Assembly: GCA_017577345.1 (NCBI GenBank)
Contig: PITX01000026.1
Span: 1-10,590 of the forward strand
DNA: 10,590 nucleotides
Source of the DNA: Clostridiales bacterium
GTDB taxonomy: Bacteria; Bacillota; Clostridia; Oscillospirales; Oscillospiraceae
Direction of reading: 5' to 3'
Each line of letters opens with the position of its first letter. Within the stretch, counting starts at the first letter, position 1. A program made the position numbers and the translations under genes. This document shows, one piece after another, positions 494 to 2,938 of the stretch. Under the pieces are notes generated by a model. That model was not told the DNA's origin. It worked only from the letters and a program-made list of their open reading frames with translations, and did no database searches.

Positions 494-1438
494 TTATCTT
501 GCATCACCACGATCTCTCTGCCGTTCCTGATATCGGTGATAATACTCAAGCGCTTTCATTATATATTCACCGGTTTTATCATAAGGAACACTGGCAGGGA
601 TATACTTCCTTGCATCTTCGTATTTGATATTGATCTTTTCCTTCTGGTTAGGTTTTTCTTCGCTCATGATAGACTCAATGACATCATTGCTCAGTTTGCC
701 TTCCTGAGAAAACTTCTTCATCTTGATAGCCTGTGCAAGAGAAGGGGTTGCGTCTGCATAAGAGATTTCTTCGAGCAGCGCAGACTGTTCCTCTTTTTTC
801 AGATAGGACAGTTCAACTGCCGGTCTCAATGCAATACGGCTTTCATCGACCATATCAAGAAGTTCGGGGATCAATTCGGTTAGACGGATATATCTACGAA
901 CCTGATCTTGACTTTCGCCAACTTCTTTACCCAGTATTTCTCTTGACGTTGCCGACTTCTGTGCCAGTGGCACAGAAGTTAAATCACTACGCTCTCCTTG
1001 CCTTTTCATGGCTTCAAGACGCATCTTGTACGAAAATGCCTTTTCACTTGGAAGGATTGTTGAACGCTGTAAGTTAGATTCAACCATTAAAATAATAGCT
1101 TCATCACGGGTCATTTCCCGAACTTCGGCTTTAACAGTTTCAAACCCAGCTAATTCACAAGCCTTCTTCCTTCGATGCCCGGATACGATTTCGTACCGTC
1201 CATCTTCTTTGGGTCTGAGCGTGACAGGAGTGATTATCCCGCGTTCTTTAATGCTCTGGACGAGCTGATCCATGTCCTCATCAATTTTTACTTTGAAAGG
1301 GTGGTCGGGGAAATCATCAATTTCTGAGATGGGTATATCATAGATTCGAGGAAGCTTATTTTCTTTTCGCTCTGCCTCGTTCATGAATAACTCATCGTAC
1401 CCGGTCAGGCCCAGATCGATTTTTTGCGCGTTCTTCAA
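494..1438 (-). CDS. parB: ParB/Spo0J-family partition protein (mobile-element type)
   Basis: This is a 314-residue ParB-family protein, the DNA-binding CTPase clamp that loads at a centromere-like site and works with ParA. The N-terminal ParB/sulfiredoxin-like domain spans about residues 30-125. It holds the nucleotide-binding motifs S-G-H-R-R (86-90) and E-S-N-L-Q-R (120-125). A central helix-turn-helix region lies at about 165-210 (ILGKEVGESQDQVRRYIRL), and a variable C-terminal region with basic and acidic helices follows. The start is TTG at 1436-1438, chosen because a full AAAGGAGGTG site precedes it at 9-base spacing. The in-frame ATG at residue 19 has no such site. The gene overlaps the 3' end of parA by 47 bases, implying coupled translation. 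A perfect 11-bp inverted repeat (955-979) lies inside the coding sequence. It resembles ParBs of conjugative elements more than chromosomal Spo0J (inference). Confidence 0.9.
   Translation of the reverse strand: MKNAQKIDLGLTGYDELFMNEAERKENKLPRIYDIPISEIDDFPDHPFKVKIDEDMDQLVQSIKERGIITPVTLRPKEDGRYEIVSGHRRKKACELAGFETVKAEVREMTRDEAIILMVESNLQRSTILPSEKAFSYKMRLEAMKRQGERSDLTSVPLAQKSATSREILGKEVGESQDQVRRYIRLTELIPELLDMVDESRIALRPAVELSYLKKEEQSALLEEISYADATPSLAQAIKMKKFSQEGKLSNDVIESIMSEEKPNQKEKINIKYEDARKYIPASVPYDKTGEYIMKALEYYHRYQERQRDRGDAR
955..979. repeat. Perfect 11-bp inverted repeat inside parB
   Basis: ACTTCTGTGCC (955-965) and GGCACAGAAGT (969-979) are perfect reverse complements around a 3-base centre. 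The repeat lies in the codons for residues about 153-162 (TSVPLAQK), just before the HTH region. It could be an internal ParB-binding (parS-like) site or an mRNA hairpin. It does not match the Bacillus parS consensus, and no T-run follows on either strand. Confidence 0.7.
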
Positions 1439-2216
1439 TTCCTGTCACCTCCTTTGTGAGTGCCTCATACGCTGTCGCAACTTTTCCGTTCTTGTCGTGT
1501 GAGAAAATGCTTTCGCCGGAAAGACTGCACTCCGCAGCTCTTACCGAAAAAGGTATTTCCGTATCGAACACGCGGATATTTTCTCCCACCGTAGATCGGA
1601 GCGAAGTAATGATTGCTTTCGCATTGTTCGTGCGGTTATCGACCATCGTCAGCAAAATAACATCAATCTTCAATCTCGGATTGATCTGTCGCCTAATCTT
1701 TGAAATAGAGCGCAGAAGCAAGTTAAGACCTTTGGTTGATAGGAAGTTCGGCTGAGATGGAATAATCACACTGTCTGCCGCAACGAGCGCATTGACTGTC
1801 ATCATTCCCAGAGAAGGCATACAATCAATAAGAATATAGTCGTAATTCTTTCTCATACTGTCGATACAGTTCTTCAGAACATACTCACGACTCATAACAT
1901 TAAACAGTCCCGTTTCCATGCCGGACAATTCAATATTAGAAGGAAGTAAGTCAACGCCTTCCGGGTGCTTCAAAATAGCATTAGAAGAAAGCTGTTCATC
2001 ATCAATAACCGACTGCATGAGAGTGGAAAGCGACATTTCCAATTCGTCAGGGTTCTTTACACCGAGACTCACCGTTAAACTGCCTTGTGGATCTGCATCA
2101 ACTAAAAGAACTTTCTTTCCTTGTGCTGCAAGTCCCACGCCGAGGTTTACCGATGTCGTAGTCTTACCGACTCCGCCTTTCTGATTTGTGATGGCAATCA
2201 CTCTACAGTTTTCCAT
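1392..2216 (-). CDS. parA: ParA/Soj-family partition ATPase
   Basis: This 274-residue ATPase of the ParA/MinD family segregates DNA by ATP-dependent dimerisation and nonspecific nucleoid binding, with ParB stimulating hydrolysis. The deviant Walker A motif K-G-G-V-G-K-T-T is at residues 13-20 with signature lysine K13. The A' motif L-L-V-D-A-D-P-Q-G is at 37-45 and the Walker B motif I-L-I-D-C at 128-132. There is no N-terminal HTH extension, so it is the short Soj-like form, near the family's usual 250-270 residues. ATG at 2214-2216 is preceded by AAAGGAGG at good spacing. parB follows with a 47-base overlap. An inverted repeat at 2241-2264 and a long structured leader precede the gene, suggesting control at the RNA or operator level. 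It is not the chromosomal soj locus, since none of that locus's usual neighbours are present. Confidence 0.93.
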   Translation of the reverse strand: MENCRVIAITNQKGGVGKTTTSVNLGVGLAAQGKKVLLVDADPQGSLTVSLGVKNPDELEMSLSTLMQSVIDDEQLSSNAILKHPEGVDLLPSNIELSGMETGLFNVMSREYVLKNCIDSMRKNYDYILIDCMPSLGMMTVNALVAADSVIIPSQPNFLSTKGLNLLLRSISKIRRQINPRLKIDVILLTMVDNRTNNAKAIITSLRSTVGENIRVFDTEIPFSVRAAECSLSGESIFSHDKNGKVATAYEALTKEVTGIEERAKNRSGPDRVR

Positions 2217-2288: not shown

Positions 2289-2520
2289 GACACCCCACGC
2301 ACAGGGAATACATCAGGCGCTTGTTTGCGAAACAAGTCCATGGGAATCTCACCCGCGCCGGGTTCTCCGCCGCCTCCGTAGAGAAGTATCATTAACCCCT
2401 GTGCTTGTCATCGCCACCACCGAAAGCAATTCGGCTTCAACTACATGAGTTTTATCGCTCGCCTTAAAAAAGGGTCATGGCGCACTTGTAGGCTCGGCTT
2501 GAGGTTTCCCTCAGCACAAG
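2289..2520 (-). ncRNA. Candidate structured leader RNA upstream of parA
   Basis: Read as minus-strand RNA, this segment holds many nested complementary arms. First comes a stem TGAGG-GAAA-CCTCA (2500-2513) inside CTTGT/ACAAG (2516-2520 with 2485-2489), then hairpin CCGAA-TTGCT-TTCGG (2420-2434). A long-range helix GCACAGGG (2397-2404) with CCCTGTGC (2299-2306) is extended by GACA/TGTC (2406-2409 with 2289-2292). Inside that helix lie TTCTC/GAGAA (2381-2385 with 2363-2367), ACCCG-GCG-CGGGT (2351-2363) and CTTGTTT-CGC-AAACAAG (2320-2336). The last two are closed alternatively by GGCGC/GCGCC (2355-2359 with 2316-2320). I do not recognise a named riboswitch class. The pairings are read by eye and no folding energy was computed. 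Confidence 0.4.
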
Positions 2521-2544
2521 GAACGTACCTGATGAATGTATATT

Positions 2545-2560
2545 CAATTGTCAAAGAGCA
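2545..2560 (-). promoter_or_regulatory. boxA-like antitermination signal
   Basis: The minus strand reads TGCTCTTTGACAATTG. It differs by one base from the boxA core of E. coli rRNA leaders (TGCTCTTTAACAAT), the RNA site bound by NusB-NusE to make polymerase resist termination. It lies just after a stem-loop GTGGGG-CAAAA-CCCCGC (2563-2579) and overlaps the TGA stop (2551-2553) of the 34-codon ORF. The embedded TTGACA could be mistaken for a -35 element, but no -10 hexamer lies 16-18 bases downstream. Function is inferred from similarity only. Confidence 0.5.
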
Positions 2561-2655
2561 TCGCGGGGTTTTGCCCCACAATCCCTTACAGCAACTTTTG
2601 AGGCCGAAAAACGACACACTTTTTGAAACTTTTTCAAAAAATTTTTTGGGCTCAT
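2551..2655 (-). CDS. 34-residue possible leader peptide
   Basis: ATG at 2653-2655 follows a good SD (CTGGAGG, 2662-2668) with 6-base spacing. The product is a basic peptide of 34 residues that begins MSPKNFLKKFQKV and ends GAKPRDAL. It has no membrane segment and no domain I recognise. Its TGA stop lies inside the boxA-like motif, and the last codons cover the GTGGGG-CAAAA-CCCCGC stem-loop, so a translating ribosome would disrupt both. This layout recalls regulatory leader ORFs such as tnaC, where ribosome position at the stop controls transcription further on. Near the start, the run of six A and six T (2637-2648) forms slippery-type heptamers. A -1 shift there would enter a frame open as far as 2441. 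Without comparative evidence it could be a chance ORF, but the SD and placement favour translation. Confidence 0.45.
   Translation of the reverse strand: MSPKNFLKKFQKVCRFSASKVAVRDCGAKPRDAL
2620..2640. repeat. AT-rich perfect 9-bp inverted repeat
   Basis: TTTTTGAAA (2620-2628) and TTTCAAAAA (2632-2640) pair perfectly around a 3-base loop, inside the early codons of the 34-codon ORF. On the plus strand it is followed by a T-run, but no plus-strand gene would need a terminator here. Confidence 0.5.
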
Positions 2656-2673: not shown

Positions 2674-2704
2674 AAAAAATCCCGCCGTGAAATTCACAGC
2701 GGGA
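2674..2704 (-). terminator. Rho-independent terminator or attenuator
   Basis: On the minus strand TCCCGC...GCGGGA (2699-2704 with 2680-2685), with an inner GTGAA/TTCAC helix, is followed at once by TTTTTT (2674-2679). It is either a back-up terminator for lysS or an early attenuator of the parA leader, because a possible promoter (2713-2741) ends just before it. Confidence 0.7.
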
Positions 2705-2770: not shown

Positions 2771-2804
2771 AAAAAAAGACCCACTACCTTTCGATAGTGA
2801 GTCT
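2771..2804 (-). terminator. Rho-independent terminator after lysS
   Basis: On the minus strand AGACTCACTA (2795-2804) pairs with TAGTGGGTCT (2777-2786), ten pairs including one G-U. A short loop separates the arms and seven T follow. It lies 135 bases after the lysS stop and probably ends the chromosomal operon. Confidence 0.8.
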
Positions 2805-2938
2805 TGTGGGAAACTATAAGCTATTATGTGATTTTAAGTGATTATACGGGAAATCACACATTGATTTGCTCCAAATTGGAGAACGGTTGGTGATTTTTGG
2901 TGACTAAAACGGAGATTTTAGCCTTTTTTCACCCAAAA

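Follow-up and report, generated by a model that had tools for sequence, protein, structure and literature searches.

The segment at positions 2545 to 2655 (minus strand) of the 10,590-nucleotide stretch analyzed here, referred to as the window, is very probably the 5' end of a cis-acting, processive antitermination RNA of the canT type, which heads the parA-parB operon of a mobile element. Since this RNA is homologous to canT of Tn916, an antiterminator demonstrated by experiment, it would most likely serve as a canT-type antiterminator for the parA-headed operon. A first-pass annotation of the same DNA had proposed boxA-dependent antitermination of a mobile-element operon, gated by translation of a 34-codon leader ORF. 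Judged from the homology to canT, the antitermination part of that proposal appears strongly supported, and the copy in the window would be expected to act in the same way as canT; the translational gate is not supported, as is detailed below. On the minus strand of the window, lysS (4879-2939) is followed by two terminator-like hairpins, the leader ORF, a further hairpin, boxA, parA, and parB. The first gene 3' of the RNA is parA (1392..2216; PF13614, E 6.6e-62), located approximately 330 nt downstream of boxA; it is followed by parB (494..1438; PF02195, E 3.3e-18) and one short ORF, past which the contig terminates.

The RNA extends from boxA to a hairpin designated P7 (2271..2560, minus strand) and comprises about 300 conserved and covarying nucleotides. 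Between boxA and parA it contains a match to the Rfam family RF02913, pemK RNA (2338..2395, minus strand), which scores 64.9 bits against a curated gathering cut-off of 34.8 (E 3.6e-10) and includes an AUGAUAC core. This family was reportedly defined by Weinberg in 2017; it is named only for a neighbouring gene, and we know of no function assigned to it. The Rfam model covers 61 positions and corresponds to one domain of the covarying RNA, which measures about 300 nt and starts with boxA. Its main folded part is closed by helix P1, whose 5' strand (2527..2534) starts right after boxA and whose 3' strand (2311..2318) lies beyond the pemK domain. Helix P2 (5' strand 2513..2521, 3' strand 2397..2405) and the hairpins P5 (2419..2435) and P6 (2320..2336) are enclosed by P1, and P7 (2271..2303; loop GGGGTGTCGTGGACAAATA) follows on its 3' side, all on the minus strand. 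A UUCCC run located 5' of P7 could pair with GGGG.

The pemK RNA is found in 92 of the 296 genomes searched, the window's own included, and 91 of these lie above the cut-off. Among the matches listed, 91 loci (L002-L092, the window's copy being L003) were taken for comparison. P1 is present in 62 of the 70 loci with a boxA score of at least 13, compared with 57 of 350 when the 3' strands are shuffled, and in 59 of these 62 loci it starts 22-26 nt past the start of boxA. Two alignments, A1 with 33 and A2 with 23 sequences, were assembled from those of the 91 loci that have a clear boxA and a similar length. RNAalifold predicts 34 pairs from the 33 sequences, 28 of them with compensatory changes, and leaves boxA unpaired. 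In a 39-pair model on the 23 sequences, 87.0% of the cells are paired, versus 64.3% after shuffling and 34.9-45.2% in slid controls, over which the model is favoured since it was drawn from the very sequences tested; changes on both sides are seen in 36 of the 39 pairs, and the covariation score is 0.613 versus 0.220 (0/500 shuffles). The 3' hairpin P7 reaches a stem score of at least 6 in 55/90 loci (20/450 shuffles), with a loop that in many loci resembles GGGGTGTCGAGGACAAATA.

In the available text of the canT report (PMC11658703), canT is described as an RNA-like antiterminator, shown experimentally to be processive and cis-acting and required for transfer. It functions in cis and in one orientation only, and allows passage of the terminators T1, T2, and T3 as well as of the gatB terminator. 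Its activity is destroyed by a 162-bp deletion or by an ATA-to-TGC change at one Tyr codon in orf5. In a 400-bp canT fragment, the latter change had little effect (PMC11658703), which counts against the reading given above. The comparison with canT was based on the pCF10 copy of the Tn916-type element (L212) instead of the Tn916 record. A profile HMM implemented in Python and built from alignment A2, which includes no Tn916 sequence, matches the orf8-xis stretch of pCF10 over model positions 1-218 of 242 (54.2 bits; E 1.9e-16 for two records), and the Rfam pemK model scores 55.0 bits in the same stretch (cut-off 34.8). The stretch contains a boxA, TGTTCTTTGAAAACTGAATA, a P1 of 12 pairs (AGTAATCGAATA/TGTTCGATTGCT), and a P2 of 9 pairs (CGATAAGAA/TTCTTATCG), so that the homology extends from boxA through the pemK domain.

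The published lesions can be placed on this RNA. According to the coordinates given in the available text, the 162-bp deletion removes the pemK domain. The two Tyr codons of orf5 are both located inside the core AUAAUGAUAC, which is among the most conserved stretches of the family; the inactivating three-base change of canT would accordingly fall within this core, whose counterpart in the window is UUAAUGAUACUUC. The window RNA and canT share boxA, P1, P2, the pemK domain, the AUAAUGAUAC-type core, and the location in a mobile element, but canT is located between orf8 and xis and is described as acting across the circle junction (PMC11658703, available text), whereas the window RNA directly precedes parA. 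At four loci (L030, L031, L064, L075) the gene before the RNA ends, by eye, like a sigma-type helix-turn-helix protein, which invites comparison with Tn916, where the sigma-like orf7 adjoins orf8 and canT is followed by xis-int. The fold of canT has so far been given as single-sequence predictions by its authors (PMC11658703, available text); with the present alignments canT gains a covariation-based fold.

The boxA of the window, TGCTCTTTGACAATTG (2545..2560, minus strand), overlaps the TGA of the leader ORF, and further copies with up to two mismatches are absent from the window's own genome. The first-pass annotation had named non-conservation of boxA among homologous leaders as a finding that would count against it; the corresponding comparison shows the opposite. 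Among the 91 loci, the window's own included, 86 have at least 300 nt of upstream sequence and five have less. In these 86, a boxA-like 20-mer matching at least 14 of 17 scored positions is present in 61 loci, compared with 23 of 860 dinucleotide shuffles, and at a threshold of at least 15 of 17 the counts are 51/86 and 4/860. Since the 17-position consensus was drawn from the same loci, a second test used independent boxA pieces from rRNA spacers. Clear rRNA was not detected in the window's own lineage by 23S patterns in sets of 60 and 6 genomes, and rRNA stretches of other Bacillota from a plasmid collection were therefore used. The piece from Peribacillus is matched at no fewer than 10 of 12 positions in 39/86 loci (26/860 shuffles), that from Bacillus subtilis at the same threshold in 33/86 (44/860), and that from Acetoanaerobium at no fewer than 12 of 14 positions in 10/86 (3/860). 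A reversed boxA gives a smaller excess (7/86 versus 29/860), so that part of the boxA excess is due to composition or to A/T tracts.

The boxA of the family is thus conserved and of the rRNA-operon type, matching the rRNA-operon boxA of Bacillota other than the window's own lineage. The sequences found upstream of 23S are TGTTCTTTGAAAACTAGATA in B. subtilis, TGTTCCTTGAAAACTAGATA in Peribacillus simplex, and TGCACATTGAAAACTGCATA in Acetoanaerobium noterae, each preceded, by eye, by a hairpin some bases to the 5' side. The gamma-proteobacterial boxA GYTCTTTAANA (PMC5725501) is matched except for A-to-G at position 8. Some of the low-scoring loci possess a boxA variant ending in ACAAAGAAAGC, which was not counted as boxA. 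In Enterococcus faecalis NZ_CP138654 (L116:1501-1521; E about 4), 21 bases are identical to the window's boxA and the bases after it. They precede a region of structured appearance, as judged by eye, on a plasmid that also carries Anti-Q RNA, and possibly belong to another boxA-led leader.

Directly 5' of boxA, a hairpin (2560..2582, minus strand) occupies the position that boxB has in rrn leaders. This stem-loop, at about 2582-2560, belongs to a fold of 51 nt with an energy of -19.4 kcal/mol. In the fold predicted for 2554-2587, AAGGG (2587-2583) pairs with CTCTT of boxA (2558-2554), so that the hairpin could mask boxA. Hairpins of at least six pairs just upstream of boxA are found in 36/70 loci, compared with 43/350 shuffles. 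The order of hairpin, boxA, and 5' strand of a closing helix resembles the boxB-boxA-boxC arrangement of rRNA operons, but the closing helix here surrounds a small leader RNA instead of rRNA, and the operon encodes proteins. In rRNA operons, NusB-S10 (NusE) is held on boxA; recruitment of the same pair by the boxA of this family would be a reasonable expectation, and NusB-S10 are proposed as host factors.

Alternatively, the RNA might antiterminate alone, in the manner of put RNA, by touching RNA polymerase directly. The boxA-like run would then be merely a conserved start piece, and NusB-S10 would not be involved. We regard this as possible but doubtful. Direct binding to RNA polymerase is what the authors of canT suspect, according to the available text of their report, and 25 of the 86 loci remain below a boxA score of 14. 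A further point, contrary to our main reading, comes from the active 452-bp canT fragment, which is stated to begin 126 nt past the orf8 stop (PMC11658703, available text). By our own count it starts at TTGAAAAC, that is, seemingly within boxA, and would hence be devoid of the hairpin and of the first six bases of boxA. This seems to speak against an absolute need for boxA, which could be dispensable, could be a folding aid only, or could be partly replaced by vector sequence. On the other hand, a common boxA form of the family, TGTTCCTTGAAAACTGAATA, differs from the pre-23S boxA of Peribacillus at two of 20 bases, hairpins precede boxA more often than in shuffles, and boxA is left unpaired in the predicted structure; these observations argue against this alternative.

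The nearly fixed distance between boxA and P1 bears on another role of boxA. In Escherichia coli rrn operons, boxC of the leader-trailer helix is mostly located 18-19 nt after boxA; it is believed to stay close to the polymerase, and this tethering has been proposed to aid helix formation (PMC10250234, available text). The boxA-P1 spacing of the present RNA is of the same kind. Conceivably, boxA serves folding only, as in rRNA, with the Nus complex tethering the 5' end and thereby bringing the 5' strand of P1 together with its partner about 220 nt further on, and with antitermination requiring nothing but the folded RNA. Although both the fixed spacing and the rrn precedent are in line with this explanation, a domain of this small size may fold unaided, and we consider a role confined to folding unlikely. 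It is compatible with our main reading, the two not being exclusive.

According to that main reading, the nascent RNA would expose the hairpin and the rrn-type boxA and would subsequently fold into a domain of about 230 nt closed by P1. NusB-S10 (NusE) would probably stay bound to boxA, as they do in rRNA operons, and the folded RNA would remain with RNA polymerase, conferring resistance to terminators. Since the polymerase would be terminator-resistant through the bound RNA, full transcription of the operon would be accomplished only by polymerases that have traversed the leader, while an upstream terminator may keep host transcription out.

Such a terminator is suggested by the region between lysS and the leader, which contains one intrinsic-terminator-like hairpin 3' of lysS (2776..2805, minus strand; 13 pairs and a T tail) and a second one directly 5' of the leader (2680..2704, minus strand; 11 pairs, 7 of them G-C). 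The latter is a possible candidate insulator. Upstream terminator-like hairpins with a dG of -14 or lower are found in 20/69 leaders, compared with 6/207 shuffles. An insulating terminator guarding the transfer genes is described for Tn916 (PMC11658703, available text); the putative one of the window lies at 2704-2680, while T1 of Tn916 is located near the other end of that element. The lysS gene is a candidate boundary of the element, the match ending at or soon past its stop in two aligned relatives (L121, L123). Another locus from the same genus (L128:12-146) partly shares about 135 nt of the post-lysS stretch (window 2776-2930), up to a point within the terminator stem; the shared part may represent an element end or an attachment region. 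Internal terminators were also considered as a sign of antitermination and were rejected, the terminator-like hairpins downstream showing no sense-strand excess (26 sense versus 25 antisense over 19 stretches); nor does a Monoglobus gene run, with 9 of its 39 terminator-like hairpins on the sense strand. This lack of enrichment counts against our main reading.

The elements on which the first-pass annotation was founded are real: a 34-codon ORF (2551..2655, minus strand; ATG at 2655, TGA at 2553-2551), an SD sequence (GGAGG, 2666-2662), a stem-loop, and a boxA overlapping the TGA are all present. From these it had been proposed that a ribosome translating the ORF and halting on boxA may gate antitermination. 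The ORF is, however, not generally conserved among relatives. SD-led ORFs of at least 12 amino acids were counted in 28 leaders with ParA confirmed downstream and in 52 other loci; five leaders in which no ParA motif was found (L040, L049, L059, L073, L085) were left out of both groups, L040 having one short SD-led ORF. The ParA leaders contain such ORFs in 10 of 28 cases, compared with 13 of 140 shuffles, so that some of these leaders may encode a peptide, and N-termini resembling one another (MKKF, MSxKNF) are seen repeatedly by eye. Yet only four of the ten stop at the TGA of boxA, whereas five cross boxA in another frame and one stops upstream; 24 of the 28 ParA leaders are therefore without an SD-led ORF ending at that TGA, and they show no conserved peptide that stops at the site of regulation, as tnaC-type leaders do. 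No excess is apparent in the 52 other loci (3/52 versus 27/260 shuffles), and the Tn916-type canT of pCF10 has no SD-led ORF ahead of boxA. The TGA frame is open for at least 34 codons in 16/61 loci, versus 7 and 12 in the other two frames (8 of the 91 loci were reversed in this count). The boxA of the window's lineage itself contains TGA, and any frame entering in that phase must stop there. An A/T-tract element, AAAAAATTTTTTGAAAAAGTTTCAAAAA (2620..2647, minus strand, by eye), lies within the leader ORF, and similar tracts are seen by eye upstream of several relatives irrespective of the presence of an ORF. Based on the frame counts and the SD-led ORF counts, a leader-peptide gate is rejected as a general feature, and we hold it to be very improbable.

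The gene context of the relatives points to mobile elements in general. For the context scan, the longest ORF of at least 60 amino acids starting within 900 nt downstream of the RNA was taken; 88 of the 91 loci have one, and after removal of the apparent duplicates L019, L041, and L092, 85 ORFs were scanned. Their Pfam matches are Resolvase (20), PemK (18), AAA_31/ParA (12), Phage_integrase (10), Mob_Pre (2), and CHAP (2). Thus, the RNA precedes ParA, PemK/MazF, and recombinase or integrase genes, and a second copy in the window's own genome is located 5' of a PemK-toxin gene. This diversity bears on the idea of a ligand-binding riboswitch or an attenuator for parA alone, which would account for the position in the 5' UTR, for the complex conserved fold, and for the Rfam classification of pemK as cis-regulatory. 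The occurrence of the same RNA ahead of toxins, recombinases, and integrases, and within Tn916, where its loss affects distant genes (PMC11658703, available text), makes this idea highly implausible.

Regarding ParA, 60 loci in genome contigs were compared. The RNA is located upstream of parA in 13 of them and is not found there in 47; it is present in all 10 loci whose ParA is at least 76% identical over at least 143 residues. A boxA score of at least 14 is reached in 12 of the 13 RNA-bearing loci, the thirteenth being cut by a contig end. In Monoglobus, the homologue stands at the head of at least 20 kb of genes on one strand, among them parA, parB, and genes for pilin-like, SNF2, TOPRIM, MobC, and relaxase proteins. 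In a Cohnella plasmid, belonging to the Bacilli, the RNA likewise lies 5' of parA (profile E 4.3e-19). Two IMG/VR contigs (L210, L211), originating either from phages or from mislabelled elements, carry the RNA as well.

For conjugative elements, the antitermination RNAs canT and conAn were known before. As far as our searches reach, what is new is that pemK RNA and canT are joined, that this RNA has a boxA and a larger fold, and that it is placed before a parA operon: no paper joining canT with boxA or pemK was found among the open-licence papers listed, and the terms boxA, pemK, and Rfam do not occur in the available text of the canT paper (PMC11658703). The Rfam pemK family would obtain a likely function through its link to an experimentally tested antiterminator. 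It is, in our estimate, an evenly balanced possibility that canT-like antitermination RNAs form a widespread class, with the pemK RNA as one of their domains, and that they mimic the front end of rRNA operons, with hairpin, boxA, and closing helix at a set distance, so as to capture the host's rRNA Nus complex. Expression of the transfer operon would then depend on passage through the leader and perhaps also, by way of free NusB-S10, on the growth state. Given that numerous mobile-element loci of Bacillota carry the same RNA, gene transfer may generally be controlled at this point.

The conAn system of plasmid pLS20 similarly places an antitermination RNA at the head of its conjugation operon, but it employs a protein processivity factor, ConAn1 (PMC8955417, available text). 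Homology of the present RNA to conAn2 was considered and rejected, the pemK RNA giving no match in the whole of pLS20 and the canT-type profile none in the parts searched (1-35 and 50-65.8 kb, or 51 of 66 kb, including the stretch after the first operon gene). In pLS20, a 20-base complementary pair, CAGGATTCACACGTTTATCA, recognized by eye, closes a long stretch without boxA located 3' of the first gene of the conjugation operon (L094:3090-3375); this closed stretch is presumably conAn2.
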